From Desulfobacteraceae bacterium (GTDB lineage: Bacteria > Desulfobacterota > Desulfobacteria > Desulfobacterales > JAABTS01), in the NCBI GenBank assembly GCA_011389735.1, contig JAABTS010000040.1, forward strand, positions 1 through 38,356: a stretch of DNA of 38,356 bases, written 5' to 3'. A model generated the notes under the pieces. It worked only from the letters and a program-made list of their open reading frames with translations. It did not search any database and was not told the DNA's origin. The first letter of the stretch is position 1. Each line of letters starts with the position of its first letter. The position numbers and the translations under genes were made by a program. Positions 3,546-22,701 of this stretch are shown here, in pieces.

Positions 3546-4685
3546 ATGAAGATTTTATTGTTGAATTATGAATTTCCGCCACTGGGCGGGGGCGCTTCAA
3601 ACGCCACGTTCAATATTGCCAAAGAGTTGGTGTTGCTTGGGTACAATGTCGAAATATTAACTTCGGGAATAAATGGTTCACCGCCAAGAGAAGAACTGCA
3701 CGGTTTTATTGTTCACCGGGTTTTTAGCCTGCGCCGCGGAATCCATGATTGCGGCATGAGAGGCGCATATACCTATGTATGGAACGCCGCTTTTCGGTTA
3801 AACCGCGTTGTTCGAAACAGCCGGTTTGACGTCTTGCATTATTTTTTCAGCCTGCCTACCGGTTTGTTGACACTGGCGCCCGGTCGTCATGGAAGCGTTC
3901 CGTATATTGTATCACTTCGAGGATCCGACGTGCCGGGATATGATCCCTGGAACAGGATGGTGCAAATGTTTCACATTTTGTTAAAACCGGTGACACGATA
4001 TATCTGGAAAAGGGCTGCGAGGGTTGTAGCGCTTAGTGACGCATTGCGAGCCACTGCGCTTGAAACAACGCCCGGTTTGGAAATCGATATTATTCCAAAC
4101 GGGGTTGAAGCCGATTTATTTAAGCCGGATGGAAATAAATCATCCGAAAATTCAGATTTTAAATTGATCACCGTATCCCGTTTGATACGTCGAAAAGGAG
4201 TCCAGCACATTCTTAAGGCTTTGAAACGAATCAACGATCCATCAATAAAACTGCTCATTGTCGGTACCGGCGATTACGAGCAACAATTGAAAAATTTGGC
4301 GGATAAACTGAAACTACATGATCAGGTTACATTCTATGGATATTGTTCGCGTGACTGCTTGCCTGCTTTGTATAATCAAATGGATGCGTTTATTCTACCG
4401 TCCATGGCCGAGTCATTTGGAATCGTATTCGCTGAGGCGATGGCCTGCCGGTTGCCTGTGATCGGAGGACGAATCGGCGGTGTCCCCGATCTTGTAAAAG
4501 ATGACAACGGAATACTTGTTGAACCGGGGAATATAGATGAAATTAAAAGCGCCATTCTTCGCTTAAAAAGCTCGAAAGCGCTTTGCAGGGATATGGGCGC
4601 CGTGAATCGTAAAAAGGTCGTCGATCATTATAGCTGGAGGTCTGTAGCTCTTCAATATTCCGATATTTATGAAAGAATTCCGTAG
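3546..4685 (+). CDS. Glycosyltransferase family 4
   Basis: A 379-residue cytoplasmic or membrane-peripheral GT-B enzyme that would transfer a sugar from a nucleotide-sugar donor. The N-terminal lobe has EFPPLGGGASNATFNIAKEL, the typical GT4 acceptor-side glycine loop. The C-terminal lobe has VSRLIRRKGVQHIL and the E-x7-E donor-binding motif at E289 and E297 (ESFGIVFAE). Length is normal for the family. It is the first gene of the glycan cluster, 31 bases before the FG-GAP protein. The donor and acceptor are not predictable from sequence. Its stop TAG is followed directly by GTTTTCAG, the terminal sequence of the palindromic element. Confidence 0.92.
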   Translation: MKILLLNYEFPPLGGGASNATFNIAKELVLLGYNVEILTSGINGSPPREELHGFIVHRVFSLRRGIHDCGMRGAYTYVWNAAFRLNRVVRNSRFDVLHYFFSLPTGLLTLAPGRHGSVPYIVSLRGSDVPGYDPWNRMVQMFHILLKPVTRYIWKRAARVVALSDALRATALETTPGLEIDIIPNGVEADLFKPDGNKSSENSDFKLITVSRLIRRKGVQHILKALKRINDPSIKLLIVGTGDYEQQLKNLADKLKLHDQVTFYGYCSRDCLPALYNQMDAFILPSMAESFGIVFAEAMACRLPVIGGRIGGVPDLVKDDNGILVEPGNIDEIKSAILRLKSSKALCRDMGAVNRKKVVDHYSWRSVALQYSDIYERIP

Positions 4686-4715
4686 GTTTTCAGGGATTCG
4701 GCTTTTTGCGAGGTT

Positions 4716-6110
4716 ATGTTTTCCAACACCTTAAACAAAAAACGATGGATAATAATTAAAGTCAAAGCATGTTTTCCATTCGTCTGCTTCGTTTTTATTA
4801 TTCTATTGATATGTTTTTGTATATTGTATCAACCGGTTGCAAATAGAATTCATTATTGTTTCTATTCTTTTAAAATGGCTGAAATTGACGAGACCCATAG
4901 TTGGCGTCGCCATGTTATCGACTCGAATGTCAACCGGGATCATGGACATTCAATTGGAGCCGCCGATCTAACTGGAGACGGCGGTCAAAATGTTCTGATC
5001 GCTTTTGGAGAACGTGGGCGTCGGCGGTCAACCGATGGCGTTTACTGGTACGAATCGGTAAATAAAGATGTTCGAGGTGAATGGCTTCGATACCGGTTGA
5101 GTGAACCATCGATTCCGATTCGATGGTGTATGGCTTTAGCCTGTGCGGACATGGACAATGATGGAGATATTGACGTAGTGGCGTTGTCTTTCAACAGCGG
5201 CAATGTTTATCTGATGGTAAATCCTTTGCATGAGGGGCTAAATATAAAAGAACCCTGGCCTACTTTGACGATATTAGAATCGCCCGGGGTATTTCGAGAC
5301 GGGGAAAACCTTGAACTCGTAGATATCGACGGCGACAACTTTTTAGATGTAGTTTTTCCTCGTGGTAAAGGCAAAGAGATTCATGTTTTGTATAACCCTT
5401 CAGGGAAGTTGTCTGAACAGTGGCAAGATTTCGTTATCGGGATTCACGGCGGCACTGACGCCCATGACGTTTATACAGCCGATATAGATAATGATAATGA
5501 TCCTGACATCGTTTCTGCGAGTGGAGATTCGACGTGGAAAGGATCTGTATTCTGGTTTGAGCATCCGGATGATTTTTCTCGTGATAGATCGTGGAAACGG
5601 CGTCGGATAAGCAAGCGATCCGCAAATTACGGGGGGTTGCAGATAGATGATGTGAACAATGACGGATGGCCGGATGTTCTTGTTACGGAAGCCCATGCAA
5701 CTCCTGGAAAAGTGCTTTGGTATGAAAATCCGAAAAACGTCGCTAAAGATTATTGGGATTCTCATCTCATTGGTTTTCAAACTTTTCCTCATGCAGGACT
5801 TTCGTTCGATGTTGACGGAGACGGCGAAAATGAATACTGGACGCCGGATAGTTCTCACGATACTTCCGGAAAATTTGGATATCGGTCGGGAGGAATCGTT
5901 TACTTCAAGTCGTCCGACTTGTCTGATATCTGGGCGATGCATCGTATCGCCGATCCTCCTGAAGTGGGAAGACAGTGCGTAGCCCTGGATATGGATGGGG
6001 ACGGCGATCTCGATGTTTTGTCAACAGCGGATCATTGCACGGAAACACATTCAATATCAATCGTATGGTGGGAGAACAGGATCAGGGATGAATATAAAAA
6101 CCGGCGTTAA
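4716..6110 (+). CDS. Membrane-anchored FG-GAP/VCBS repeat protein
   Basis: A 464-residue protein with one hydrophobic segment at about residues 20-42 and no convincing cleavage site, so probably anchored with the bulk outside the cytoplasm. At least six repeats have the form D-x-(D/N)-x-D-x-x-x-D followed by a hydrophobic strand (DMDNDGDIDVV, DIDGDNFLDVV, DIDNDNDPDIV, DVNNDGWPDVL, DVDGDGENEY, DMDGDGDLDVL). These are calcium-binding beta-propeller blades of the FG-GAP/VCBS type. Such propellers bind proteins or carbohydrates. A glycan-handling role is inferred only from its place between a glycosyltransferase and the flippase-like gene, which it overlaps by 23 bases. Confidence 0.8.
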   Translation: MFSNTLNKKRWIIIKVKACFPFVCFVFIILLICFCILYQPVANRIHYCFYSFKMAEIDETHSWRRHVIDSNVNRDHGHSIGAADLTGDGGQNVLIAFGERGRRRSTDGVYWYESVNKDVRGEWLRYRLSEPSIPIRWCMALACADMDNDGDIDVVALSFNSGNVYLMVNPLHEGLNIKEPWPTLTILESPGVFRDGENLELVDIDGDNFLDVVFPRGKGKEIHVLYNPSGKLSEQWQDFVIGIHGGTDAHDVYTADIDNDNDPDIVSASGDSTWKGSVFWFEHPDDFSRDRSWKRRRISKRSANYGGLQIDDVNNDGWPDVLVTEAHATPGKVLWYENPKNVAKDYWDSHLIGFQTFPHAGLSFDVDGDGENEYWTPDSSHDTSGKFGYRSGGIVYFKSSDLSDIWAMHRIADPPEVGRQCVALDMDGDGDLDVLSTADHCTETHSISIVWWENRIRDEYKNRR

Positions 6111-7041
6111 AATTGCGGTCAGCTTTTCTCTAATGGGGTATCTATTATGGAGCGTGGATTTGCATAGATTGGCGGATTCCTTAAAGAATGTAAATCCTGT
6201 TTATCTGATCGCCATATATCTGACATTTATCCCGGGAACCTTGATAAGCACTTTCAAATGGATGATATTATTAAAAACTCAAGGAATTCACAAACCCAAT
6301 TTTGTCAGGTTGTGGGTTTTGTATCATATCGGTATTTTCTTCAGCAATTTTTTACCCACCGAAGTCGGCGGTGATGTAGTAAGGGGCTATATCGTTGGAA
6401 AAGAATCCGGAAAACAAGCCGAGTCTTTGGCGGCTGTCGTCATGGAAAGAGTTACAGGATTGACGGCGGTTGTATTTTATGCAATATTGGGCCTTTTTTT
6501 AAACTGGTCGCTGGCGCGTGATCTCAATTTGTCATATCTGGTGTTCATCGTGACAGCCATGATGGGCGTCGGCGGTTATGCGGTGTTAAACCGGAATCTG
6601 GCGAAACTGATAAAAACAAAATTATCGTTTTCATTTTTCGATAAGGTTATGAAAAAAGCCGAATCGTTGTATGAAGCCATCTATCGATATAAAACCAAAA
6701 CAAACACACTTTCAATCGTTATCGGAATTTCATTGATTTTTCAGTTGTACGCCATCTGGTTCAATTTCGCGTTGATGCGATGTATGCGAATCGATCTCTC
6801 ATTTTTGTGCATGATTTTCATTATTCCAGTGATCACCATTATCGGTCTGGTTCCGATCACCATAAACAGTATCGGAATACGTGAAGGCGCATTTGTTTTT
6901 TTATTCGCACAGGTCGGTGTTTCCGAAGAAAAATCGCTGGCTTTAGCGTTATTGTATCGCGCAGGCGTAATGGCGCCCGGGCTGGTGGGGGCTCTATTAT
7001 ATACGTTCAGTAACAATGGCAAAGATTTACGGTCATCTTGA
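6088..7041 (+). CDS. Flippase-like integral membrane protein (LPG synthase TM/AglD family)
   Basis: A 317-residue polytopic protein with about eight hydrophobic segments. Start MNIKTGVKIAVSFSLMGYLL, the motif FFSNFLPTEVGGDVVRGY, and IGLVPITINSIGIREGAFVFLF near the C-terminus are typical of the UPF0104 / lysylphosphatidylglycerol-synthase membrane-domain family. Members are linked to lipid-linked sugar transfer or lipid translocation, often in glycan clusters. A start at 5995 is possible in frame, but the ATG at 6088 begins at the conserved region and has a GGGAGAACAGGATCAGGG leader. It overlaps the previous gene by 23 bases, suggesting coupling. It may move a lipid-linked sugar across the inner membrane, which is an inference. 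Confidence 0.85.
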   Translation: MNIKTGVKIAVSFSLMGYLLWSVDLHRLADSLKNVNPVYLIAIYLTFIPGTLISTFKWMILLKTQGIHKPNFVRLWVLYHIGIFFSNFLPTEVGGDVVRGYIVGKESGKQAESLAAVVMERVTGLTAVVFYAILGLFLNWSLARDLNLSYLVFIVTAMMGVGGYAVLNRNLAKLIKTKLSFSFFDKVMKKAESLYEAIYRYKTKTNTLSIVIGISLIFQLYAIWFNFALMRCMRIDLSFLCMIFIIPVITIIGLVPITINSIGIREGAFVFLFAQVGVSEEKSLALALLYRAGVMAPGLVGALLYTFSNNGKDLRSS

Positions 7042-7147
7042 TATAGGTTTTCAGAAATTGAATTTCAAGGGGCGGGAGGCCTGGGATAATATCGTTCGTA
7101 TATCCCGGGCCGACAACACGGTGAAATTTTATTTCTGGCGGCTATAG
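7042..7147 (-). repeat. Palindromic intergenic element, copy C
   Basis: About 106 bp, minus orientation. It begins TATAGGTTTTCAGAAATTGA, has the core GGCCTGGGATAATATCG and TATATCCCGGGCCGACAACA, and ends TTTATTTCTGGCGGCTATAG. It begins directly after the stop codon of the flippase-like gene. Confidence 0.9.
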
Positions 7148-7219
7148 TATCCACAACCCCAAGATTGAACGTTTGATTGATTCAAAAAGTAGTTTTGAAC
7201 GACGAGAGAGGCAAAAAAT

Positions 7220-7975
7220 ATGGCTGACAAATCCGAAATCCAGGATTTAAAAGGCAAGCTCAACGAAGACGGTCTGATAATTCCAGCCGATTATGTATTG
7301 ATGAAACGTAACTTTAAAGCGGAATTGTTGGAGTTCTATTTGAATTCTTTGAAAGAGGGGCAAACCATTCTTGATCTGAATCCTGGTTTCGATGGCGTTT
7401 ATACCGATATTGATCTTTCACGGCTACAATATATCGCTGTCGAACAAAATTCACATATAAAATCCTTCCTTAAAGAAAAAAACATTGCCGTAAAAGATTG
7501 GAAAGCGCCGAATATCCCCTTGAACGATAATTCAATAGATTACGTATTGAGCGCTCCCTATATTGAACATCTTCCTACTTATCTGGATGCTTTGAATCTT
7601 TTGATCGAAATCAAACGTGTTCTGAAAAAGGATGGAAGAATTTTGTTGATCGTTCCTAATTATTTGAATCTTAAATCGATATTCTATGAAGATTATAAAC
7701 ATGGCTGGGTGACGACAAAAAAGCGCCTGGAGGATATGCTTCGAGATTGCAGCTATGATGTTCTCGGATTTCGCTATACGATAGGATGGATAACAATGCG
7801 GATGAATCCTTTGTGTACGGTTTTGAGATTCGCGATATATTTGATCATGGCGATCATCAGAATGAATCCGGTTGAAAGGTTTTTGGAAGCGGTCAAGCTG
7901 GACAAGCTCGGTCATAAGTTTAAAAAAACCTTTTTTGAATTGATCGTTATCGAAGCCAGAGTGAACAAACCCTGA
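7220..7975 (+). CDS. Class I SAM-dependent methyltransferase, first of four
   Basis: A 251-residue protein with a Rossmann methyltransferase fold. The SAM-binding motif I is unusual (TILDLNPGFDGVY, with LNPG where most have DxGCG). The post-motif segments are recognisable: IDYVLSAPYIEHLPTYLDAL and IKRVLKKDGRILLIVPN. The C-terminal 70 residues contain a hydrophobic stretch (AIYLIMAIIRMN), so membrane association is possible. It resembles methyltransferases in O-antigen and glycolipid clusters. The acceptor is unknown. The altered motif I may mean weak SAM binding. The next gene begins 13 bases downstream. Confidence 0.75.
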   Translation: MADKSEIQDLKGKLNEDGLIIPADYVLMKRNFKAELLEFYLNSLKEGQTILDLNPGFDGVYTDIDLSRLQYIAVEQNSHIKSFLKEKNIAVKDWKAPNIPLNDNSIDYVLSAPYIEHLPTYLDALNLLIEIKRVLKKDGRILLIVPNYLNLKSIFYEDYKHGWVTTKKRLEDMLRDCSYDVLGFRYTIGWITMRMNPLCTVLRFAIYLIMAIIRMNPVERFLEAVKLDKLGHKFKKTFFELIVIEARVNKP

Positions 7976-7988
7976 AAGAAGGCGTCCG

Positions 7989-8747
7989 ATGAAAACAACC
8001 GCTATACATAGTCCTTTTAGCACATTCTGTGAGGGACCCGAGGATATCGAGAAAGGTTACCATTTGTTTTATTTATTTCATCGGCGTAACTATTCTAAAC
8101 GGATTCCAAAGTTCAAAGATTCTGAAATATTAATTGTTTCTTGCGGAGTAGGCTATTTTCAGCATTTTTTAAACAAGCTGGGTTATCAAAATGTAAAAGG
8201 AATCGACTCTGATCCTCAAAAAGTCGAATACGGCCGGAAAAAAGGATTTGTTTCAGAGTGCATCGATTGTTTTGAATATCTTGAAAAAACGGAATGTAAA
8301 TACGATTTAATATTCGCCGAACAGGAGGTCAACCATTTAACCAGGGATGAATTGATATACTTTCTAAACCTTTGCCACCTGGCTCTTAAACCCAAAGGCA
8401 AACTTATCATCAATGCGGCAAACTGCGCTAATCCGATCATATCCACCGAATATTTGGGGAACAATATCGACCATTATACTAATATTACGGAAAACAGTTT
8501 GAAACAGTATTTTTCGTTTACAAAATTCGGTGTTATTGAAATATTTCCGCATGATTTTTATGTCCTTTGGACGAATCCATTGAATTATATCGCCAGGTTT
8601 TTTACCGGGGCCGTCCATATTCTTCTGAGAATTATTTTCAAATTGTACGGCAAAAAGAACGTAATATTTACAAAACGTCTGGGAGCGGCGGCGGTTAAAC
8701 AGTCCGGACTTTCAGAGGATAATCAAGCTAGAACGAACAACGATTGA
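7989..8747 (+). CDS. Class I SAM-dependent methyltransferase, second of four
   Basis: A 252-residue protein. Motif I is ILIVSCGVGYFQHFLNKLGY with the acidic SAM-ribose residue in GIDSDPQKVEYGRKKGF. Motifs II-III are DLIFAEQEVNHLTRDELIYF and ALKPKGKLIINAANCANP. The tail has a hydrophobic segment (ARFFTGAVHILLRIIFKLYG) that could contact the membrane. The layout matches small-sugar or lipid-linked methyltransferases in glycan clusters, but the acceptor cannot be read from the sequence. ATG start follows GAAAGAAGG at 7974-7982, giving normal ribosome binding. Confidence 0.8.
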   Translation: MKTTAIHSPFSTFCEGPEDIEKGYHLFYLFHRRNYSKRIPKFKDSEILIVSCGVGYFQHFLNKLGYQNVKGIDSDPQKVEYGRKKGFVSECIDCFEYLEKTECKYDLIFAEQEVNHLTRDELIYFLNLCHLALKPKGKLIINAANCANPIISTEYLGNNIDHYTNITENSLKQYFSFTKFGVIEIFPHDFYVLWTNPLNYIARFFTGAVHILLRIIFKLYGKKNVIFTKRLGAAAVKQSGLSEDNQARTNND

Positions 8748-8763
8748 TATTGACTCATAGGTT

Positions 8764-8872
8764 TATATAGCCTTCAAGAAATCAAATTTCACTGTGTTGT
8801 CGGCCTGGAATATACCAATAGTATGATCCCAACCCTGCCGCCTTGTGAAATTTAATTTCTGAAAATCTATAG
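8764..8872 (+). repeat. Palindromic intergenic element, copy D
   Basis: About 109 bp, plus orientation. It begins TATATAGCCTTCAAGAAATC, has the core GTTGTCGGCCTGGAATATA and CCTGCCGCCTTGTGAAATTT, and ends AATTTCTGAAAATCTATAG. It separates the second and third methyltransferase genes. Confidence 0.9.
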
Positions 8873-8893
8873 AAGCTTTTTTGGGGAGGGACA

Positions 8894-9616
8894 ATGAAGA
8901 ATCCATCCAATGACAAGGTGAAATACCAGGAAGCGGTTTTTGATAAAAAAGCCGGAAAGCGGAAAATATATGCGATCGGAGGCAGGAAAAACCGTAATCA
9001 CGCTATAAAGCTGAATAAAATATTTGAAACGCTTCAATTCCACGATGGCGACAAGGTTCTTGAAATCGGAACCGGAGAGGGAGAACACGCCTATTGGTGC
9101 CTGAAATACAGCGGCATATTTTATACCGGTGTCGATATTTCTCGTAGATCATTAGACGTCGCCGATAAACGGCTTTGCGGCTTTAAAAATCGATATTTGC
9201 TAAAGAAAGAGAACGCAAATCGCTTATCGTTTGATAATGATCATTTTGACTCGGTCTTTTGTGCTGCTACATTGCATCATATGGAAGAACCATTTTCAAT
9301 GATATCTGAAATGGTTCGAGTTTTAAAACCGAATGGGAAAATTGCATTAATGGAGCCTAATTGGATATACCCGAGCAATGTTGGATTTGCAATTTTTCTA
9401 AGGGAGGATAGAAATATGTTTCTTATGAAGAAGCGAAATCTTTATCGTTGGCTAAAAAAAGCGGGACTGAAGGATATTAAAGTTGAAAACCTGCTCTATA
9501 CGCCGCCGGCTCCGAAAAAATTGATTCCGTTTTATGATCATGTTGATGAAATTTGCGGTAAATTGCCGATGATTCGTGCTTTTTCTCTCATGTTGTTTGG
9601 GAGCGCGGTTAAGTAA
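8894..9616 (+). CDS. Class I SAM-dependent methyltransferase, third of four
   Basis: A 240-residue enzyme of the Methyltransf_11 / UbiE-like type. Motif I is VLEIGTGEGEHAYWCLKYSG, the acidic motif is GVDISRRSLDVADKRL, and motif II is FDSVFCAATLHHMEEPFSM, followed by MVRVLKPNGKIALMEPNW. All core SAM-binding features are intact. GGGGAGGG lies 6 bases before the ATG (8883-8890). Small size and lack of a fused domain suggest a diffusible acceptor such as a sugar or lipid headgroup. It is followed 15 bases later by the next methyltransferase. Confidence 0.85.
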   Translation: MKNPSNDKVKYQEAVFDKKAGKRKIYAIGGRKNRNHAIKLNKIFETLQFHDGDKVLEIGTGEGEHAYWCLKYSGIFYTGVDISRRSLDVADKRLCGFKNRYLLKKENANRLSFDNDHFDSVFCAATLHHMEEPFSMISEMVRVLKPNGKIALMEPNWIYPSNVGFAIFLREDRNMFLMKKRNLYRWLKKAGLKDIKVENLLYTPPAPKKLIPFYDHVDEICGKLPMIRAFSLMLFGSAVK

Positions 9617-9631
9617 CGAAAGAATACGATT

Positions 9632-10387
9632 ATGGAAGTTGATGGTTTTTATAAAGATCATTGGACAAAATACCCCTTGGAAATACAGGGAGTGTTGGAT
9701 CATCTACTAGAAATATTCCCTGAAGGCGTTGGTGGGCGGCGCGTATTGGACGCCGGCAGCGGCAGCGGGATGGTTTCCGTTGCATTTGCACTGCTCGGCG
9801 CCGATGTGACCGGAGTGGATATTACCGACCAATGCGTACAAAATGGATATAAAAATGCGAACCGGTTCAATGTCGATTGCCGGTTCTTGAAAAGAAACCT
9901 GATTTCTCTCGATTTGGAAGATGAAAAGTTTGACATCATCTATAGCTGGGGTGTATTGCATCATACTGAAGACGCGAAAGCGAGTTTCCGAAGTTTGGCG
10001 AAACATTTAAAATCCAACGGTGATATGATAATCGCGGTGTATTTAAAAACAGGAATATCGCGTTTCTGGAATTTTTCGCGAATTTTCTACCAAAAAGCCC
10101 CTGAAAAGTTCAAATCAATATTTCTTGAAGGTGGTTCTCGTATACTCGATTTTGTGGATATTTTCAACCGGCTTCTTTTAAAAAAGCAACGTTACATGAT
10201 GCGTGGTACAGACAATTACGAAATCATCAATGACTGGTTTGGGGTTCCGCATAGAACATTTCATACTTATGAGGAGGTTTTTAGATGGTTCGAGGAGAAT
10301 GGGATGGATTGCGTACTAGTTAATCCCGCAACCGGACGTTTTAAATCGACTTCCAATTTTGTCGTGCGCGGAAAAAAACGGGAGTGA
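9632..10387 (+). CDS. Class I SAM-dependent methyltransferase, fourth of four
   Basis: A 251-residue enzyme. Motif I is RRVLDAGSGSGMVSVAFALL, the acidic motif is GVDITDQCVQNGYKNA, and motif II is FDIIYSWGVLHHTEDAKASF. The segment after it, HLKSNGDMIIAVY, completes the fold. The C-terminal region (NYEIINDWFGVPHRTFHTYE) resembles sugar and polyketide C- or O-methyltransferases, but no specific match can be claimed. Its stop codon overlaps the region before the radical SAM gene (GGGAGTGAAAATG), so the two are probably translated together. Confidence 0.83.
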   Translation: MEVDGFYKDHWTKYPLEIQGVLDHLLEIFPEGVGGRRVLDAGSGSGMVSVAFALLGADVTGVDITDQCVQNGYKNANRFNVDCRFLKRNLISLDLEDEKFDIIYSWGVLHHTEDAKASFRSLAKHLKSNGDMIIAVYLKTGISRFWNFSRIFYQKAPEKFKSIFLEGGSRILDFVDIFNRLLLKKQRYMMRGTDNYEIINDWFGVPHRTFHTYEEVFRWFEENGMDCVLVNPATGRFKSTSNFVVRGKKRE

Positions 10388-10389
10388 AA

Positions 10390-11475
10390 ATGAATTATTT
10401 TTCAAAATATACCGGGATGGCTGTGAATATGGCTTTCCGTCTTTTGAAAATCAAGAACAGGAAATTGCCGGGACTACCTGCTCACATTCAGGTGGAGATT
10501 ACCAATAAATGTAATTTGAGATGTTTATCCTGCCATCGGGATTTATTGTACCCTGAAACAACCTCTATGAGCTTCGAGAATTTTAAAAAAGTGTATGATG
10601 AGATTCACCCCGCCAGGATAAACATCAGCGGTCTTGGCGAACCTTTTCTGAATCCTGATATTTTCAAGATCATAGAACACGCCAAAAAGTGTGGATCTGC
10701 TGTAAATTGCGCCACAAATTTTACCCTTGTCGGGAATAAGATCGATCGACTCATTGAATCCGGTATCGATCAGATTAAAATATCGATCGACGCCTCAAAA
10801 AAAGAAACGTTTTTGAAAATCCGTAAAAAGGATTTATATGAAACCTTGATTGAAAATATCGCCGAATTGAACAGGGTTAAAAAAGAACGTGGAGTTAATC
10901 GGCCCGATATTCGTTTTAACTACGCATTGCAAAAAGAAAATATCGATGAATTGCCGGATATCATTGAACTTGCCGGTTCGATGAATGTCAGGGCGATATA
11001 TATTCAATATCTGATTTATATCGACAGGGAAGACCGAAAAGACAGCCTGGTGGGCGATATGACGGCTGAAAAGCTCATGAATGTTCTTCACAAGGCGGAT
11101 AAAACAGCTCAAAAAAATGGAATCATTACCAATATTGATATGTGGAAGCGGGATTTCAATCTGTTCTGGAACAATATGCAGCCTTCCGATCTCCGGATAA
11201 AAAACCACAGGCCTTGCTATTTTCCATGGTTTTCTTCCTGGATTGACGCCGATGGAACAGTGCGGCCTTGTCCTATTATACCCTGGAAAAAAGGGACTGC
11301 ATGTATGGGAAACGCATTTCATGAAAGTTTTTTGTCAATATGGAATAACAGCAGGTATCAAGATTTCAGGAATTCACTTGTAAACGGCGTAAGGCCTAAT
11401 GAGGTATGCGAACAATGCATCCCTCCCAGTTTGGAAACCATATTTCAAATCGGAACGAAGCTTCTTCCGAAATAG
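10390..11475 (+). CDS. Radical SAM/SPASM domain enzyme
   Basis: A 361-residue iron-sulfur enzyme. C41-x3-C45-x2-C48 (KCNLRCLSCHRD) binds the radical SAM cluster. The segment after it, SGLGEPFLNPDIF, is the usual glycine-rich SAM contact. From C276 on, a cysteine-rich SPASM-like tail has RPCPI and VCEQC, for auxiliary clusters. Such proteins modify peptides, nucleosides or sugars by radical chemistry. The ATG at 10390 is preferred to the GTG at 10384 because CGGGAG lies at the right distance. In this cluster it may act on a sugar or lipid precursor. No peptide substrate gene is visible nearby. Confidence 0.88.
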   Translation: MNYFSKYTGMAVNMAFRLLKIKNRKLPGLPAHIQVEITNKCNLRCLSCHRDLLYPETTSMSFENFKKVYDEIHPARINISGLGEPFLNPDIFKIIEHAKKCGSAVNCATNFTLVGNKIDRLIESGIDQIKISIDASKKETFLKIRKKDLYETLIENIAELNRVKKERGVNRPDIRFNYALQKENIDELPDIIELAGSMNVRAIYIQYLIYIDREDRKDSLVGDMTAEKLMNVLHKADKTAQKNGIITNIDMWKRDFNLFWNNMQPSDLRIKNHRPCYFPWFSSWIDADGTVRPCPIIPWKKGTACMGNAFHESFLSIWNNSRYQDFRNSLVNGVRPNEVCEQCIPPSLETIFQIGTKLLPK

Positions 11476-11499
11476 AACCGGAGTTTTTTATATACTATC

Positions 11500-13347
11500 A
11501 TGTGCGGGATTTGTGGCTTTATAGGAAATTTCTCGAAAGAAATACTCGAACGAATGACTGACGTCATGGCTCATCGCGGACCTGACGACCGTGGCTTTTA
11601 TCAGGATAACAATGCGGGGCTCGGCCACCGCCGTTTGAGCATTATCGATCTCAACACCGGACGCCAGCCGATTTATAACGAAACCGGATCATTGGCGATC
11701 GTTTACAATGGTGAAACATACAATTTTCAATCTCTTCGTAACGATCTCGTTTCAAAGGGCCATGTGTTTGAAACCAAAACCGATACGGAAATCATTGTAC
11801 ATTTATATGAGGAATACGGTGAACGGTGTGTAGATTATTTACGGGGGATGTTCGCCTTTGCAATATGGGACAATGAAAAACGGGAGCTTTTTCTAGCTCG
11901 GGACCGGTTCGGGATAAAACCATTATACTATACCGAACTTTCGACCGGTGAGTTTATCTTCGCATCCGAAATTAAGTCTATTCTTGAAATACCTTGCGTC
12001 AAGCGTGAAATAGATGAAACAGCCTTTGATCAATATTTTACCTTTCGTTACGTTCCTGAAGACCGGACAATGTTTAAAGCCATATACAAGCTGGAACCAG
12101 GCCATTTTCTTGTTTACAAGAATGGCAAGGCGAAGATTGAACAATATTGGGATATTGATTTTGACAGGGATGCCCCTCTATCAGGTAATGTGTCCGATAT
12201 TGCACATCGCCTGAAAGAATCGCTTCGCGAATCCATAAAAATCAGGTTGATGAGCGACGTTCCCCTGGGAGCCTATCTTTCGGGCGGACTTGATTCAAGT
12301 TTTATCGTCGGACTCATGAGCGATATATGCCCTGACCCGGTTGAAACCTTTTCAATCGGTTTCGATGATATCAAGTGGAATGAATCCCGTTATTCCGATT
12401 TTGTCGCCTCGCATTATCATACAAATCACCATCGGTTGATCGCCGGGGCACACCATATCGACCTCATGCACAAGGTTATCCGGCATCTTGACGAACCATT
12501 GGCTGATGCGGCGACAATCCCGACTTACATGATGTCTGAACTTACACGGCGATACGTGACAGTCGTCCTTAGCGGAGAAGGGGCCGATGAACTCTTCGCC
12601 GGATATGACAAATACAAGATTCTGGATTTTGGCCGCTTCATTCGGCGCCTTAACCCCTCTTTTCTTTTCAATTCAATGAGTAATAGTTCGTTAGGCCGGA
12701 AAAACATCACCATTGGGCGCATATCCGATTATCTGGGGGCGGTAAAAGATCCGGCGCACGCATATCTTCAACTTGTATCGGTTTTTACAAAAAGAGAAAG
12801 GCAGAAACTGTATCGCCGCCCGGATATTATTAATGACACTTCATACGAAATCATAAAAAAATATATCAACCGCTTTGAAAACAACCTTCATAACCTTCTC
12901 TATATCGATCTGAAAACCTGGCTTCCAAACGATGTTCTGTTAAAAAACGATAAAATGACCATGGCCAATTCCATCGAGGCGCGTGTTCCCTTTCTGGATC
13001 ACCTGTTCGCTGAAGAATCCGCCAGAATTCCGGCGTCTATGAAAATGAAAGGAATGAGGGAAAAATATATTTTGCGCAAAGCCATGGAATCAGTTGTTCC
13101 CATGGAGATTGTCAAACGTAGAAAACATGGGTTTACCGTCCCTTTGCAACATTGGATGGACGGAGGTCTCGATCGTTTCGCCCGTGAAGCCCTGTCAAAG
13201 AAAACGATTGAAAGAAGAGGTTACTTTAATTACGACACTATTGAATCCCTTTTTCAAAAAAGTTTAAAAAATATTTTTTATCGTCGTCAGTTTTGGAGCG
13301 TGTTGACTTTTGAATTATGGTGTCAAACATTCCTCGACAAGCATTGA
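11500..13347 (+). CDS. asnB: Asparagine synthase (glutamine-hydrolysing)
   Basis: A 615-residue two-domain enzyme that makes asparagine, or amidates another carboxylate, from glutamine and ATP. It starts MCGICGF; the cysteine becomes residue 1, the glutaminase nucleophile. The N-terminal domain has HRGPDDRG, GHRRLSIIDL and YNGETYNF. The synthase domain carries the pyrophosphate loop YLSGGLDSS at about residues 259-267, LSGEGADELFAGY, and EARVPFLDH. The tail has RRKHGFTVPLQHW. Length is normal. Copies within glycan clusters often amidate sugar acids or have lost amino-acid metabolism roles, so a glycan role is plausible here. It starts 24 bases after the radical SAM gene. Confidence 0.93.
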   Translation: MCGICGFIGNFSKEILERMTDVMAHRGPDDRGFYQDNNAGLGHRRLSIIDLNTGRQPIYNETGSLAIVYNGETYNFQSLRNDLVSKGHVFETKTDTEIIVHLYEEYGERCVDYLRGMFAFAIWDNEKRELFLARDRFGIKPLYYTELSTGEFIFASEIKSILEIPCVKREIDETAFDQYFTFRYVPEDRTMFKAIYKLEPGHFLVYKNGKAKIEQYWDIDFDRDAPLSGNVSDIAHRLKESLRESIKIRLMSDVPLGAYLSGGLDSSFIVGLMSDICPDPVETFSIGFDDIKWNESRYSDFVASHYHTNHHRLIAGAHHIDLMHKVIRHLDEPLADAATIPTYMMSELTRRYVTVVLSGEGADELFAGYDKYKILDFGRFIRRLNPSFLFNSMSNSSLGRKNITIGRISDYLGAVKDPAHAYLQLVSVFTKRERQKLYRRPDIINDTSYEIIKKYINRFENNLHNLLYIDLKTWLPNDVLLKNDKMTMANSIEARVPFLDHLFAEESARIPASMKMKGMREKYILRKAMESVVPMEIVKRRKHGFTVPLQHWMDGGLDRFAREALSKKTIERRGYFNYDTIESLFQKSLKNIFYRRQFWSVLTFELWCQTFLDKH

Positions 13348-13389
13348 AAAATGAGTGCAATATATAACCGAACAATTTTTGATTGCTGG

Positions 13390-13497
13390 GCTACAGTCTT
13401 CCAGAAATTAAATTTTACCGTGTTGTTGGCCCGGGATATAAGAATAGTATAATCCCAGGCCTGCCGCCTTGTGAAATTTAATTTCTGAAAACCTGCA
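13390..13497 (+). repeat. Palindromic intergenic element, copy E
   Basis: About 108 bp, plus orientation. It begins GCTACAGTCTTCCAGAAATT, has the core GTTGTTGGCCCGGGATATAA and CCCAGGCCTGCCGCCTTGTG, and ends AATTTCTGAAAACCTGCATA. It separates asnB from the GT2 pair. Confidence 0.9.
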
Positions 13498-13513
13498 TAA
13501 CGAAGGTGTTTTT

Positions 13514-14473
13514 ATGCCGATTTATGTGAGCGTCGTTGTACCTTTATATAATGAAGAAGAGTCCGTGGAAAAACTGGTTTCGGAAATTGAGAGCGTGGGA
13601 ACGAGCTTTGATTTTGAATACGAAATCATCCTTGTAGATGACGGCTCTTCCGATAGAACATGGACAATCATCGAACAGTTAGGAAAACAAAAGCCTTACA
13701 TAAAAGGGATCAAATTCAGAGGCAATTACGGACAAACAGCGGCGATGGTCGCAGGATTCGACTATGCTTCAGGAGAGATCATTGTCACCATGGACGGCGA
13801 TTTGCAAAATGACCCCGCCGATATTCCCATGTTGCTGGAAAAATTGGAACAAGGGTATGACATTGTCAGTGGTTGGAGAAAAGATCGGAAAGATAATTTC
13901 GCCCGGGTTTTTCCGTCAAAGATCGCCAACTATATCATATCGTTAACAACTAATGTGCATCTTCATGATTATGGCTGCTCGCTTAAGGCGTATCGAGCCG
14001 AATGTATAAAACCTATCAAACCTTATAGTGAAATGCATCGCTTTTTTCCGGCTCTCGCCAGTATGACCGGAGCCAGGGTAACTGAAATTCCCGTAAAACA
14101 CCACCCCAGAAAGTATGGTACATCCAAGTACGGTTTTGAGAGAATCCTGAAGGTTTTTATAGACATCTTTTCCTTGAATCTGATTATCCGGTTTTCATCC
14201 ATGCCTTTGAAAGGGTTCGCCCTTTGTTCAATTCCTTTTTTGTTGTTGACTACGCTTTTTACAACATTGAGCGTTCTTTCCGTGATACTTGGCTGGACTG
14301 CGGGAAAGGCGCCGTTTTTTCTTTTACTGGCGATGCTAAGCGGAATTGCGGCGTTTCATCTGATAACCCTGGGGGTGATCGGGGAGCTGATTGTTGGATC
14401 GGGAGACTTGTCTCATACCCAGCTTCCGGAAATAACCAAAAAAACCTTGATGTTGGGGTGTGACGATGAGTGA
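13514..14473 (+). CDS. Polyprenyl-phosphate glycosyltransferase, GT2 family (DPM/GtrB/ArnC type)
   Basis: A 319-residue enzyme that would move a sugar from a nucleotide donor onto undecaprenyl phosphate at the inner membrane. Motifs: VVPLYNEEESVEKL at the start, VDDGSSD at residues 41-47, the catalytic D94-G-D96 (TMDGDLQND), and the acceptor segment HHPRKYGTSKYGFERILK. Two membrane helices lie in the C-terminal 90 residues, as in GtrB. The product would feed a GT39-type enzyme such as the one at 15731. It overlaps the next gene by 8 bases, and that neighbour looks like a degenerate paralogue. Confidence 0.9.
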   Translation: MPIYVSVVVPLYNEEESVEKLVSEIESVGTSFDFEYEIILVDDGSSDRTWTIIEQLGKQKPYIKGIKFRGNYGQTAAMVAGFDYASGEIIVTMDGDLQNDPADIPMLLEKLEQGYDIVSGWRKDRKDNFARVFPSKIANYIISLTTNVHLHDYGCSLKAYRAECIKPIKPYSEMHRFFPALASMTGARVTEIPVKHHPRKYGTSKYGFERILKVFIDIFSLNLIIRFSSMPLKGFALCSIPFLLLTTLFTTLSVLSVILGWTAGKAPFFLLLAMLSGIAAFHLITLGVIGELIVGSGDLSHTQLPEITKKTLMLGCDDE

Positions 14474-15548
14474 AAGAGATGTAAAAGTTCAGTATTCGGT
14501 ATTGGTTATCCTCGAAGAAAAAATGAATGAAAAGATAGTAGGGTTCTCGGATTACATCGACACCCTGTATGATATATTCCTATCCAGGGATGCGTCTTTT
14601 GAAATATTGATCATTGCAAATGGAGCGGAGGGACTTTTAAGAAATGAATTACATTATATTGAAAAATGCAGAACACAGTTGAGAACGTTTGCATTGAGCA
14701 AGAAAGTTCCCCAGGCGATTTGTCTGACGCTGGGGCTTAAAGAAAGCGCAGGCGACATCATTGTCGTGTGCGGGCCATATCAACAACTGACCAATGAATC
14801 TTTTATCGGTATGCTGGACGCGTTTACGGATGATGTCGATATCATAACTCCATGCCGGGAAAATAGACGCGACCCTCGTTTCAACCAGCTTCAGTCACGG
14901 ATTTTTAACGGCCTCGTAAGATTTATCACGAAATCCGATATCCACGATTTGAGCTGCAACGTAAAGGCATTCCGCCGTTATGTGCTTGAAGATGTAAAAC
15001 TATATGGGAATATGTATCCTTTCCTGCCGATCCTGGCGGAACGTAGGGGATACAAAACGAAAGAAATACAATGCGCCAATTATCAGGCGATCGGCAGGAC
15101 CGGGTTCTATTCTCTATCAGAGTATTTCACCAGAATTATTGATATATTCACATTGTATTTCAATACGCGCTTCGCCAGAAAGCCGCTTCGTTTTTTCAGC
15201 GCCGTTGGGGCGCTGTTTATCCTGATAGGGGTTCTTATTATCTGTTATCTTTGTTTTCAAAAATTTTTTATGGGATATGGCGTTGGTAATCGTCCGGAAT
15301 TGCTGATATCCGTCCTGTTTATGGTTTTCGGGGTTCAAGCCGCCGGCGTGGGGCTGCTTGGTGAAATTTTCGTGTTTATCCAGGGACGCCATATCAAAGG
15401 ATACAATATCGAACGGTATGTTTCCGCGGAATACAGCGGCCCTGAGAGACGAAAGGATATCGGCGAATATGAACAAGCGAAACCGGTTAATATTAGAATG
15501 GTTGATAAACATAATACTGAAGAACGGCGCAAGTATGAAAAGCATTGA
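14466..15548 (+). CDS. GT2-like protein lacking the usual catalytic motifs
   Basis: A 360-residue relative of the preceding GT2 enzyme with the same layout: a nucleotide-sugar fold, an acceptor-side segment (NVKAFRRYVLEDVKLYGNMY), and two membrane helices (FFSAVGALFILIGVLIICYL and ISVLFMVFGVQAAGVGLLGE). The positions expected to hold VDDGSSD read LIIANGAEG. The expected DGD motif reads VCGPYQQ (about 101-107), so the metal-binding DxD is gone. The start is ATG 14466, overlapping the previous stop by 8 bases (a GTG six bases earlier is possible). A non-catalytic partner or subunit of the first GT2 is the likely role; a different chemistry is possible. A charged cytoplasmic tail of about 50 residues follows the last helix. 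Confidence 0.75.
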   Translation: MSERDVKVQYSVLVILEEKMNEKIVGFSDYIDTLYDIFLSRDASFEILIIANGAEGLLRNELHYIEKCRTQLRTFALSKKVPQAICLTLGLKESAGDIIVVCGPYQQLTNESFIGMLDAFTDDVDIITPCRENRRDPRFNQLQSRIFNGLVRFITKSDIHDLSCNVKAFRRYVLEDVKLYGNMYPFLPILAERRGYKTKEIQCANYQAIGRTGFYSLSEYFTRIIDIFTLYFNTRFARKPLRFFSAVGALFILIGVLIICYLCFQKFFMGYGVGNRPELLISVLFMVFGVQAAGVGLLGEIFVFIQGRHIKGYNIERYVSAEYSGPERRKDIGEYEQAKPVNIRMVDKHNTEERRKYEKH

Positions 15549-15591
15549 TTGTCGATTCCTGAAAAATCAAGCCCTGATAATTCAGGTTAGG

Positions 15592-15699
15592 GATAGGATT
15601 TTTAGGAATTAAATTTCACAAGGCGTCAGGCCCGGGACAATACGATTCGTATATACAGGGCGGACAACGCAGTGGAATGAAATATCCGGAAGGCTGTAT
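15592..15699 (-). repeat. Palindromic intergenic element, copy F
   Basis: About 108 bp, minus orientation. It begins GATAGGATTTTTAGGAATTA, has the core GGCCCGGGACAATACG and TACAGGGCGGACAACGCAGT, and ends AATATCCGGAAGGCTGTAT. It lies between the GT2 pair and the GT39 gene. Confidence 0.85.
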
Positions 15700-15730
15700 C
15701 ACATGAGTAAATCGAGAAGGGGAGTTGAGA

Positions 15731-17632
15731 ATGGCTGATTATACGGCTTCAGACACCAGAAAGTTTTTGTCGATCATATTATTATGCGCCGGCGTTTTGC
15801 GATTATGGGGCATATGGCACGGATATCCTTATTCCTATTATCCGGATGAAGCTCATTTTGTCAAAAGAGCCCTGTCTTTTGGCAGCGGCGACTTAAATCC
15901 TCATTGGTTTCATAAGCCGGCGTTTTTTATGTATGTGCTTTTCTTTGAATACGGGGTCTTTTTTGTCATCGGTAAAATCGCCGGAATGTGGGAAAGCGTG
16001 GGAGGATTTGCGGTATCCTATATTAAAAATCCCGGCCCTTTTTACATCATCGGCAGAATCACCGTGGCTGCATTTGGCATGGGTGTTATCGTTGTAACTT
16101 ATCTAATTTCAAAAACACTTTTTAATCGAAAAAACGCTGTCTTTTCAGCTCTGATCTTAGCGGTGTCGGTTGGACATGTCATGGTTGCCAAAGATATCAA
16201 AGCGGATATTCCATGCGCCTTTTTTACTATCCTTTCCGTATATTTTCTCATTTTATACCTGAAATTCGGAAGGACTCGCAGTATTCTTTTGTCGGCTGTT
16301 TTCGCCGGAATTGGAACCGCGACAAAATATTATTCCATTGTGATGCTGGCTCCTATATCCGTCGCCCTGTTTTGGAACTTTAGAAATTATAACAAACAAT
16401 TTTTCATATACGCTTCTAAACGGTTTTTCCTGTGCATTATCGTATTTTACCTGGTATATTTTTTTTGTTCTCCCTATAACTTCATCGATCCGCTAGGCAG
16501 AAAGGAAACATTCGGCAAGTTCCTAATTTTATCGGAAAAAGTTGTAAAAGTGGTTAAAGGGGAGAGCACGGATGAACTTCGCGAAGATGAAAAAATTGCA
16601 GAATCCATAGATGCGTCCAAAATTTCGCCTCAGCTTATTATTAAAGGGTTTTTCAGTTATATCGGCGAATTGAACAAAGGCATGGGATCGATTGTATTGA
16701 TATTGTCTTTTTTAGGCCTTGTTTTGTTAGTCCGAAACTTGAATAGTGCAATTGTATGTTTTTTGTTGTTTCCTTTTTTATTCATGGGGATTTCCATATT
16801 AATTCATCCGGGATACGCCGAAATACGGCATCAGGTGATTATATATCCATTTATCGCCGTAGCGGCGGCTTATTCATTCACTTTGATTTTGGATAAAATG
16901 ACGGCGTATCACCAAATAGGATATATATTGATCGTTTTATTGCTTGTACCGCTTTACGGTTCGGTTCAGTATAATATGTCCATTTCGAAAAAGGATACAA
17001 GAAATATCGCAAAGGCCTGGATCGAGAAGAATATTTCACCAGAGAGCAGATTGTTGCTGGATGAAGGAGGCGTAGAGCTTATGATGAGCCGGAGCAATAT
17101 TGAAAAAAATATCGTAAAAGCTGATAATGCTGATAAAAAAGGACAGTTTACCGCACATTACGACACATATCTGAAATACCAGTTTGACGCCGTAAAAGAC
17201 GCCGTTGCATATGATATCACTTACATCAGGTTCCCCTGGTGGAGAGATTCGGAAGATAAGGGCGGTGTCCGCATTCTGGATTCTGAATTTGATAAAGACA
17301 TGGGAAATCCTTTAATACCCGCAGGCGTCGAAAACTATGGGTATTATATCCAAAACGGATTTGACTATGCTGTAGTGCATAGTTACAAATATAACTCTTT
17401 TCTTAAAGAAAACGCTGCATCAAAAAAATTTCCATCCTTTAAAAGATTCTACACCGAACTTTTCCAAAATGCTCCATTGGTTAAAACGTTCACCCCGGAA
17501 TCTTACAACGCGAAAGGTCCGGTTGTAAAAATATTTAGATTCTCCCGAAAAAAGAGCGACAAATCGAGCGCTGATCTTAATTTTTCAGGAATTGCACATT
17601 TATGTTCCTTATATAGCTTTTCAGATAATTAA
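15731..17632 (+). CDS. GT39/ArnT-like polyprenyl-phosphate-dependent glycosyltransferase
   Basis: A 633-residue integral membrane protein with roughly 10-12 helices. The first periplasmic loop has YSYYPDEAHFVK with the catalytic D39-E40 of GT39/ArnT/PMT enzymes. A soluble C-terminal portion follows. The family uses polyprenyl-phosphate sugars as donors, so it pairs with the GT2 enzyme at 13514. Likely acceptors are lipid A, glycans or proteins. ATG 15731 is preferred to the TTG at 15725 because GGGGAG lies 6 bases upstream. The final codons (LYSFSDN and the TAA) come from the palindromic element G, so the C-terminus was altered by that insertion. Confidence 0.87.
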   Translation: MADYTASDTRKFLSIILLCAGVLRLWGIWHGYPYSYYPDEAHFVKRALSFGSGDLNPHWFHKPAFFMYVLFFEYGVFFVIGKIAGMWESVGGFAVSYIKNPGPFYIIGRITVAAFGMGVIVVTYLISKTLFNRKNAVFSALILAVSVGHVMVAKDIKADIPCAFFTILSVYFLILYLKFGRTRSILLSAVFAGIGTATKYYSIVMLAPISVALFWNFRNYNKQFFIYASKRFFLCIIVFYLVYFFCSPYNFIDPLGRKETFGKFLILSEKVVKVVKGESTDELREDEKIAESIDASKISPQLIIKGFFSYIGELNKGMGSIVLILSFLGLVLLVRNLNSAIVCFLLFPFLFMGISILIHPGYAEIRHQVIIYPFIAVAAAYSFTLILDKMTAYHQIGYILIVLLLVPLYGSVQYNMSISKKDTRNIAKAWIEKNISPESRLLLDEGGVELMMSRSNIEKNIVKADNADKKGQFTAHYDTYLKYQFDAVKDAVAYDITYIRFPWWRDSEDKGGVRILDSEFDKDMGNPLIPAGVENYGYYIQNGFDYAVVHSYKYNSFLKENAASKKFPSFKRFYTELFQNAPLVKTFTPESYNAKGPVVKIFRFSRKKSDKSSADLNFSGIAHLCSLYSFSDN

Positions 17633-17828: not shown

Positions 17829-18947
17829 TTAACGCAGCGCCTGATAACCGCCGGAGACGCCCCTGGGCGACAGAACGATCTGCCAGACCTGATTCTTGCG
17901 GGCTCTGAACGAACCGGCGCAGGACAGGAGGTAGTACTTCCACATTCTGTAAAAGCGTTCATCATAATTGGATTTCAGACGGTCCCAGTTTTCCCGGAAT
18001 TTGTTATACCACGCCATTAGTGTTTTTTCATAATGAGGTCCGAAATTATGCCAGTCTTCCAGGACGAAAACGCCTTCGATGCTGGATGTGAGCTGAGCTG
18101 GACTGGGAAGCATGGAATTGGGGAAAATATATTTGGAAATCCATTGATCCGTGCCGATTACCGACTGGTTTCCGCCGATAGTATGCAGCAGGAACAGGCC
18201 GTCGGGTTTTAGCAGATCCCGAATTTGTTTCATGAACGGCCGATAATTTTTATACCCCACATGTTCAAACATCCCGATGGACAGGATGGCGTCGAATTTT
18301 CCGTTCATGTCGCGATAATCTTTCAGTTCGATATCCACCGGAAGCCCTTTGCAGAATTCTTCGGCATAGGCCGCCTGTTCCTCGGAAACAGTTACGCCGG
18401 TCACATGAACGCCGTATTGTTCCGACAGGTAACGCGCTGTCCCGCCCCAGCCGCACCCGACATCCAGTAGTCGCATGCCTTCCGACAGTTTAAGCTTTCG
18501 AGCCGCCATATCCAGCTTGGCTTTTTGAGCGTCATCGACGGTGTCGGCGTTGGCCCAATATCCGCAACTGTAGATCATGAGATTGTCGAGCATGCATTGA
18601 AACAGGTCGTTTCCGATATCGTAATGATGTTTGCCGATCCGGTAAGCGCGGGCTCCTTTTTGAAGATTGACCAGCTTTGCCCTTATAAAATGGAGGGCCG
18701 ATTTCCAGGACCGGATCGTCTCGTCCAGCCCGACGCGAAGAACCCGATTGAAAAATTCATCCAGGCGTTTGCATTCCCACCAGCCGTCCATGTATGCATT
18801 GCCTAACCCCAGCGATCCTTCCGCCAAAATCCGAGGGTACAGGTCTTCATTATAGACCCGAATATCCCAGGGACGGTCGCCGTTGATTTTAACGTCCGCT
18901 TTTTGAAGATTGGGTTCGATTTTCTTGAGAAAAGAATCTGTTTGCAT
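17829..18947 (-). CDS. cfa: Cyclopropane-fatty-acyl-phospholipid synthase
   Basis: A 372-residue enzyme that adds a methylene from SAM to double bonds of membrane phospholipid acyl chains. Seen: YDIGNDLFQCMLDNLMIYSC, the SAM site LLDVGCGWGGTARYLSEQYG, TVSEEQAAYAE, and FDAILSIGMFEHVGYKNYR, all diagnostic of Cfa/mycolic cyclopropane synthases. Length is typical. The ATG at 18947 is chosen because AGGAGG sits six bases before it; the 18965 TTG would place this site inside the gene. It is the only minus-strand gene between 592 and 34160 and is convergent to the glycan cluster. No convincing promoter was found upstream. Confidence 0.95.
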   Translation of the reverse strand: MQTDSFLKKIEPNLQKADVKINGDRPWDIRVYNEDLYPRILAEGSLGLGNAYMDGWWECKRLDEFFNRVLRVGLDETIRSWKSALHFIRAKLVNLQKGARAYRIGKHHYDIGNDLFQCMLDNLMIYSCGYWANADTVDDAQKAKLDMAARKLKLSEGMRLLDVGCGWGGTARYLSEQYGVHVTGVTVSEEQAAYAEEFCKGLPVDIELKDYRDMNGKFDAILSIGMFEHVGYKNYRPFMKQIRDLLKPDGLFLLHTIGGNQSVIGTDQWISKYIFPNSMLPSPAQLTSSIEGVFVLEDWHNFGPHYEKTLMAWYNKFRENWDRLKSNYDERFYRMWKYYLLSCAGSFRARKNQVWQIVLSPRGVSGGYQALR

Positions 18948-19094
18948 ATCGCACCTCCTGTTCAATGATTATGGATACATGCGCCGCCGATTGAATTCCA
19001 ATGATGGCGGAAACTCGATAAAACACCAGGCATAGCCTCTTACGCCGGTAATTGAGGGAAATTATGCTTCCCGATATACACACTCAGGAATATT

Positions 19095-22549: not shown

Positions 22550-22635
22550 TCCGCGTATGTCGATGAAATCAATAAAGAACAGATTGTCGCTGAAGCTCTT
22601 TAATTTGGAATCAATCTGACCATGTATCCCGACCA

Positions 22636-22669: not shown

Positions 22670-22701
22670 CCGTTTCAAGGCAGATTTTACCGGAGGATCG
22701 A

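Follow-up and report, generated by a model that had tools for sequence, protein, structure and literature searches.

The window analysed here is a stretch of 38,356 nucleotides from a Desulfobacteraceae bacterium (assembly GCA_011389735.1, contig JAABTS010000040.1, positions 1 to 38,356). Our subject is an island of genes at about positions 3546–17632, all on the same strand and with intergenic gaps of at most 178 bases, that runs from a GT4 glycosyltransferase gene through genes for an FG-GAP protein, a membrane protein of the LPG_synthase_TM family (LPG_TM), four methyltransferases (MT1 to MT4), a radical S-adenosylmethionine (SAM) enzyme (rSAM), an AsnB-type amidotransferase, the polyprenyl-phosphate glycosyltransferase ArnC1 and its paralog ArnC2 to a GT-C membrane glycosyltransferase. 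A first-pass annotation had drawn attention to the range 7220–13347, from MT1 to AsnB, as genes that decorate a surface sugar or lipid. This general reading is fair. The range stops short of ArnC1, ArnC2 and the GT-C enzyme, and what most deserves notice is the ArnC pair that lies beside the run, in which one member is intact and the other is probably its non-catalytic partner.

Sequence features of ArnC1 and ArnC2

ArnC1 (13514–14473, + strand) is an intact ArnC/GtrB-type enzyme with DDGS and MDGDLQ motifs and the arginines R122 and R199. In alignments with ArnC and GtrB structures its DDGS, DxD, R122 and R199 fall in register, and it matches ArnC (9hwj) over most of its length at an E value of 8e-55. 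The ArnC2 gene (14460–15548, + strand) overlaps that of ArnC1 by 14 bases, and a three-row ArnC2 profile matches 9hwj at 1e-29 over positions 9–322 of 324, which takes in both the glycosyltransferase and the transmembrane domains. In the window's ArnC2, however, ANGAEG replaces DDGSSD, CGPYQQ replaces MDGDLQ and the R199 column has no arginine, so that the DxD metal site and the DDGS donor motif of catalytic ArnC/GtrB enzymes are both gone. The island thus differs from the systems represented by the ArnC (9hwj, 9bhc, 8vxh) and GtrB (5ekp) structures in having a tandem pair whose second member lacks DDGS and DxD.

The key active-site residues of GtrB, a model enzyme of the polyprenyl-phosphate glycosyltransferases, are described as D94, D96, R122, D157 and R200; mutations of key donor- and acceptor-site residues abolish its activity, and its tetramer is built from a single polypeptide (PMC4728340). 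The R122 position and an HD aspartate are kept in all 18 ArnC2 sequences that were read (below); the GtrB D157 column is out of register with the HD aspartate in the alignment, and we do not equate these residues. ArnC2 is probably a non-catalytic partner of ArnC1.

Alternatively, ArnC2 might be an enzyme in its own right that uses the vacated donor site for a novel reaction, acting for instance on the lipid-linked sugar once this has been loaded. The vacated site does have a conserved motif of its own (among 11 sequences G105 and Q108 are invariant, Y107 and Q109 nearly so), and the sole unsaturated comparison indicates purifying selection, with ratios of nonsynonymous to synonymous substitution rates of 0.25 for ArnC2 and 0.16 for ArnC1. 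The wider ArnC2 clade, however, replaces this motif by SY.Q or AYFQ, PQTPQ, or GWPE, the absence of both donor motifs is best explained by lost catalysis, and an intact ArnC adjoins ArnC2 in every readable case. We regard an independent enzyme as quite unlikely, and favour the non-catalytic partner.

Distribution and phylogeny of the pair

A search of the phylum with ArnC2 as a single sequence found its own genome only (1 of 395) and no remote relatives, and an alignment was used instead. The three-row profile matched 40 of 389 genomes of the order, and motifs were read in the best match of 30 of these: 14, the window's own included, lack DxD and 16 are ordinary enzymes (the other 10 genomes, and second matches in some, are unread). 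A search of the phylum with a broader, 11-row profile added one DxD-less copy from outside the order (G242), and plasmid records added three from Alphaproteobacteria, namely Indioceanicola profundi, Leisingera sp. NJS201 (NZ_CP038235.1) and Rhodobacteraceae bacterium S2214; one of 132 plasmid records from one search and five of eight from another were read, and plasmid hits of Rufibacter and Acidithiobacillus caldus turned out to be ordinary enzymes that have DxD. None of the 18 sequences so assembled has DxD. Databases label the second gene "glycosyl transferase family 2" in Leisingera and "glycosyltransferase" in strain S2214, and it is unannotated in the Indioceanicola table. The score of the broad 11-row profile was tried as a definition of the family and rejected: it picks up ordinary ArnC as well, and among the 30 loci read with it DxD-less copies occurred only in the window's own locus and in G242, so the family is set by motif and tree and not by score alone.

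Wherever the gene upstream of ArnC2 is fully visible, it is an intact, full-length ArnC (15 of 15 cases), including one (G638) in which a gap of 0.66 kb separates the two. The three cases left out of this count lie at contig ends (G636 and G666) or show only the tail of an ArnC there (G161). No solitary ArnC2 was found among the sequences read, most matches of the broad profile being unread. In a FastTree phylogeny of 80 sequences the 18 ArnC2 proteins fall into a single clade (support 1.0) and their 15 intact partners into another, exclusive one (0.969), and a tree of 72 sequences agrees, with 15 ArnC2 proteins (1.0) and 12 partners (0.974). Both sets were built from open reading frames (ORFs) of at least 270 amino acids, of which 72 were kept after copies with the same core had been removed, and eight proteins from named plasmids brought the number to 80. 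The distances of nine ArnC1/ArnC2 pairs are correlated (r=0.86; 1 of 5000 permutations reached as high a value), and part of this correlation may be shared organismal descent. Among the sequences read, then, the pair has a single origin and has co-diverged.

In Indioceanicola an LPG_TM protein directly follows the ArnC pair, and in Leisingera and strain S2214 the pair is embedded among exopolysaccharide genes, including those for an export protein and a tyrosine autokinase. We found no description of the gene set or of a dead ArnC partner in the open-licence PMC literature, as judged by titles and the beginnings of abstracts.

The radical SAM enzyme and AsnB

The rSAM gene (10384–11475, + strand) matches PF04055 and the SPASM family PF13186, and is followed by the AsnB gene (11500–13347, + strand; PF13537 and PF00733). 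This is the order, and these are the families, given by the first-pass annotation; the nuance is that the domain called SPASM has the cysteine pattern of a twitch domain. In addition to CxxxCxxC at residues 43/47/50 there are four auxiliary cysteines, C278, C296, C342 and C345, all of them kept in four close orthologs (the window's included) and in G318, a genome from outside the order; in a ten-row alignment three are invariant and C345 is nearly so. This set of four is the one-cluster "twitch" pattern. Twitch domains bind one auxiliary cluster, which in BtrN is held by four cysteines (PMC9012708), and BtrN is the best sequence match of rSAM in the PDB (9e-11).

The predicted structure of rSAM has a mean predicted local distance difference test score (pLDDT) of 82. 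Its nearest fold is that of DesII (Z 24.8, 298 residues, 4.1 Å), an enzyme with a sugar substrate, and BlsE is second (Z 23.8, 294 residues, 3.5 Å); the peptide enzyme SuiB (Z 23.2) ties with BlsE, SkfB comes next (22.5) and BtrN is lower (18.7). With BtrN, BlsE and DesII the window's enzyme has in common the radical SAM core and an auxiliary-cluster domain, at 15–17% identity in structural alignments. Since SuiB ties with BlsE, the substrate cannot be read from the fold, and a sugar is favoured by context. The gene is rare, being found in three of 242 genomes of the order at 1e-40 and in two of 385 of the phylum at 1e-50, its own genome counted in both. A close named relative (66%) lies in Deltaproteobacteria bacterium CSMAG_537 (locus L014), and distant ones (26–28%) occur on plasmids of Brachyspira hyodysenteriae and Methylobacterium (records H21–H30).

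AsnB has full glutaminase and synthetase domains and an N-terminal cysteine (MCGI), which is the domain content of uronamide-forming enzymes of the WbpS type. Its best NCBIfam model is TIGR03108, at 622.7 bits against a cut-off of 816.9; it also matches TIGR01536 (545.9 bits) and the lasso cyclase model NF033535 (273.7 bits, 3.5e-81). In Porphyromonas gingivalis the AsnB homolog PGN_1234/WbpS produces a linking sugar that is a glucuronamide (PMC7468200). The same paper already places TIGR03108-matching asparagine synthases beside glycosyltransferases in exosortase loci, so the association of AsnB, exosortase and glycosyltransferases is not new. We liken the window's AsnB to WbpS by enzyme type and by its place in a glycan locus, and no Wbp pathway genes were recognised among the island ORFs scanned.

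An enzyme with a SPASM family match next to an amidotransferase and methyltransferases could also belong to a peptide natural product cluster of the kind that makes ribosomally synthesized and post-translationally modified peptides, with rSAM as maturase and AsnB as a lasso-type cyclase. The match of AsnB to the lasso cyclase model and those of rSAM to several peptide maturase models and folds speak for such a cluster, and yet TIGR03108 and TIGR01536 score about twice as high as the lasso model, AsnB has retained MCGI at its N-terminus together with a complete glutaminase domain, and the neighbours that recur are glycosyltransferases. We set this reading aside as very improbable, without a dedicated search for small precursor ORFs.

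The window resembles XrtA/PEP-CTERM exopolysaccharide loci in the best AsnB match, in having a PEP-CTERM protein upstream, and in that exosortase and EpsI-like genes lie near its relatives in L014 and G125. The two exosortase matches in the window's own genome are on contigs C38 and C68 and the window is on contig C318; for this reason, and because AsnB scores under the TIGR03108 cut-off, the window was set aside as an XrtA locus proper. The upstream gene (1882–2664) lies outside the island and codes for a DUF4114 protein whose C-terminus carries a PEP-CTERM sorting signal. Exosortase and EpsI-like (DUF3485) genes were seen at L014:8053–9506, near rSAM and AsnB, and at L059:5511–7003, near an ArnC pair.

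The methyltransferases

MT1 (7220–7975; PF08241, 4e-8), MT2 (7989–8747; PF13649, 3e-7), MT3 (8894–9616; PF08241, 3e-19) and MT4 (9632–10387; PF08241, 2.5e-17), all on the + strand and the last overlapping rSAM by four bases, bear out the description of this run as four different SAM methyltransferases in a row. In Pfam each scores above the gathering threshold for one or more class I methyltransferase families. Their mutual likeness in BLAST is low (24–43% identity over 7–162 amino acids in the six pairs, best E value 6e-9), so they are not tandem duplicates. The degenerate motif I of MT1, LDLNPGFDG, was also seen correctly by the first-pass annotation: it departs from the glycine-rich motif I of class I enzymes, and the best Pfam match of MT1 starts past it, at residue 59, the remaining domain still matching PF08241. 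Two MT1 orthologs were found (27–34% identity), beside rSAM and AsnB in G191 and G097, and both have an ordinary motif (VEIGPGLG and LEVGPGYG, respectively), so that the degeneracy is a change in the window copy and not a family trait. The claim that the product is highly methylated does not follow from the number of genes, and the SAM motif of MT1 is damaged.

Relatives of the other three were sought in 60 genomes (the window's own included) that were chosen and not random, 40 with a hit to the ArnC2 profile and 20 without. MT2 has orthologs (45–46%) in three besides its own, G106, G092 and G161, all near GT4 and LPG_TM family genes and two of them with AsnB. MT4 has one (58%), in G076, on a contig with the order GT4-AsnB-MT4, and a 32% relative adjoins rSAM in G318. 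For MT3 the other 59 genomes yielded no ortholog at E≤1e-20.

Recurrence of the gene set

Parts of the island recur together. G191 has a contiguous MT1-rSAM-AsnB-PMT-ArnC1-ArnC2, in G097 the order is rSAM-MT1-AsnB-ArnC1-ArnC2, after which comes another PMT_2-family protein, and in G318 ArnC, GT4, AsnB, a methyltransferase, LPG_TM, rSAM and the MT4 relative stand in a row, the ArnC there being intact, 47% identical and outside the partner clade. L014 keeps rSAM-AsnB, with an exosortase and an EpsI-like gene further on. None of the other genomes read has all four methyltransferases in a run. The quartet is thus not a conserved unit, and MT1, MT2 and MT4 with rSAM are part of a varying tailoring set around AsnB and glycosyltransferases.

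The remaining island genes are linked to this set as well. The GT4 glycosyltransferase (3546–4685, + strand; PF00534, 2e-44) has relatives in the G318 set (38%) and beside AsnB and MT4 in G076 (46%). LPG_TM (5995–7041, + strand; PF03706, 3e-41, and TIGR00374), a flippase-like protein and our candidate lipid-sugar flippase, has relatives of 25–30% in G318, G106, G092 and other gene sets, among them the one after the Indioceanicola pair. The PMT_2-type GT-C protein (15725–17632, + strand), assigned by a family match (PF13231, 2e-15) and with 10 hydrophobic segments, has relatives of 46–52% adjoining ArnC1/ArnC2 in G191, G690 and G730. The island is completed by an FG-GAP (beta-propeller) protein that has a hydrophobic segment near its N-terminus, at residue 10 (4716–6110, + strand; PF13517, 9e-26); its gene is overlapped by the LPG_TM ORF, whose true start may therefore be later. 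G690 and G730 likewise have FG-GAP proteins ahead of PMT-ArnC1-ArnC2, with no BLAST match to the window's at 1e-5. The idea of surface sugar decoration thus stands in so far as MT1, MT2, MT4, rSAM and AsnB each recur beside glycosyltransferases, in some cases with a flippase-like protein, and finds no parallel for the four-methyltransferase run or for MT3.

These data bear on whether the island is simply a patchwork exopolysaccharide or O-antigen locus, in which the methyltransferases, rSAM and AsnB modify unrelated residues and lie together because such loci collect tailoring genes. A patchwork would account for the low G+C content of the island (0.417, compared with 0.49 in the window beyond 19.5 kb and 0.425–0.51 in eight other loci of the same genome), for the lack of MT3 orthologs and for the variation of accessory genes between gene sets. 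It sits less well with the recurrence of rSAM with AsnB, MT1 or MT4, and ArnC in G191, G097 and G318, or with ArnC1 and ArnC2 occurring together in all sequences read in which the upstream gene is fully visible. A mere patchwork seems to us unlikely, if still a serious contender, and we prefer to read the island as one decoration system.

A different, neighbouring gene set recurs in relatives of the order (L111, L112, L055 and L064, and in part L060), with AsnB, LPG_TM, a hexapeptide acetyltransferase, MT2 or not, GT4, an NAD epimerase and a GlpD-like FAD enzyme, not all of them in each; families were scanned in L055, L111 and part of L064, and the remainder was assigned by sequence likeness. 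This set possibly leads to a glycerol-containing glycan or lipid.

A proposed glycan decoration pathway

In the three-component scheme a polyprenyl-phosphate synthase, a flippase and a GT-C enzyme act together, as in the GtrA/GtrB/Gtr-X and undecaprenyl phosphate-ribofuranose systems (PMC11127046). Like these, the island has a polyprenyl-phosphate glycosyltransferase, ArnC1, with intact DDGS and DxD, a membrane protein that is a candidate flippase, and a GT-C transferase by family match, in one locus. Flippases of the scheme are of the GtrA, SMR or MATE types (PMC11127046), whereas the island's candidate belongs to the LPG_synthase_TM family; a Pfam scan of 27 window ORFs, which took in neither short ORFs nor the remainder of the genome, matched none of these three types, and LPG_TM may stand in for them. 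The island further differs in the second, DxD-less synthase and in the attached genes for amidation, methylation and radical SAM chemistry, and we say that it works like a three-component system without classing it as a member.

We propose, with a probability of about 0.6, that the island is an operon-like system for surface-glycan decoration that combines periplasmic glycosylation resembling the three-component scheme with amidation, methylation and radical editing of the sugar, and in which ArnC2 is a non-catalytic partner. In the cytosol AsnB would amidate the sugar, some of MT1 to MT4 would methylate it and the twitch-type rSAM would edit it, most simply by a two-electron oxidation. ArnC1, with ArnC2 as its conserved non-catalytic partner, would load the sugar, probably one of the uronic acid type, onto undecaprenyl phosphate, LPG_TM would flip the lipid-sugar and the GT-C enzyme would transfer the sugar outside the membrane. 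The order of the modification steps and the acceptor are suppositions of ours. A DPM-family enzyme is described that makes Dol-P-GlcA, that is, loads glucuronic acid on a lipid (PMC9943897), and loading of this kind would suit an amidating AsnB.

Several observations weigh against this proposal. The island ORFs scanned include no recognisable gene of sugar-nucleotide biosynthesis, which makes the identity of the sugar a guess; LPG_TM is taken for a flippase solely because of its family, and nothing that matches it was seen around the pair in the 40 kb read of G191 or the 9.7 kb of G097. Much of the set occurs without ArnC2 in G318, and in the 11.3 kb read of L014, where rSAM is at the contig start and its upstream side unseen, there was no ArnC2 and only weak GT2 matches were found. 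In the fold comparison of rSAM DesII comes first, but BlsE ties with the peptide enzyme SuiB and SkfB is close behind; the AsnB score is under the TIGR03108 cut-off, and the structure of ArnC2, modelled from two sequences, came out too poorly (pLDDT 44) to be of use. The broad profile matched 128 genomes of the phylum, of which motifs were read in 31 (the 30 loci and G318) and 97 are unread. Promoter-like sites lie in two internal gaps (7121–7148 and 13426–13453), which leaves a single transcript no more than likely.

On the side of one transcript, all seven + strand terminator-like sites between 2600 and 18000 are intragenic, and the terminator scan as a whole (13 sites, 15.1 expected) does not exceed chance; the promoter scan (54 sites against 38.5 expected, standard deviation 6.0) is too unspecific for use.

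A bolder and more tentative idea, for which we would put the odds somewhat below even, is that ArnC1/ArnC2 represents a class of obligate hetero-oligomeric synthase. The catalytic subunit would load the sugar, and the donor-dead subunit, which keeps part of the lipid-phosphate half-site in the R122 position and the HD aspartate, would present, check or hand the lipid-sugar to the flippase; such a class would have arisen once, co-diverged between the window's order and Alphaproteobacteria, and here serve a glycan with a radically edited, methylated uronamide. If this is true, a conserved DxD-less second subunit would be a regulated or division-of-labour version of a step that opens many surface-glycan pathways, and the named organisms that carry the pair make the idea testable. 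The set of rSAM, AsnB and methyltransferases points to an unusual sugar, close to the question of what proteins sorted by the PEP-CTERM/exosortase system become attached to.

Other genes in the window

No tRNA and no Rfam match at gathering scores was found in the window. Near its start an ORF at 592–1386 has a partial thymidylate synthase match (PF00303, 1.6e-11) that covers residues 146–251 only. Directly past the island, on the opposite strand, lies a gene of the cyclopropane-fatty-acid synthase family (17829–18965; PF02353), and 21641–23688 holds a hydrolase whose matches, of lipase type, are weak, with a lipase chaperone (PF03280) after it. No further BREX genes were recognised among the window ORFs scanned with Pfam besides a 1654-amino-acid ORF at 24773–29737, the N-terminal part of which is like BrxC/PglY and DUF6079 (Pfam 8e-33; PADLOC 1.3e-25); this ORF adjoins a hydrolase and a chemotaxis receptor.

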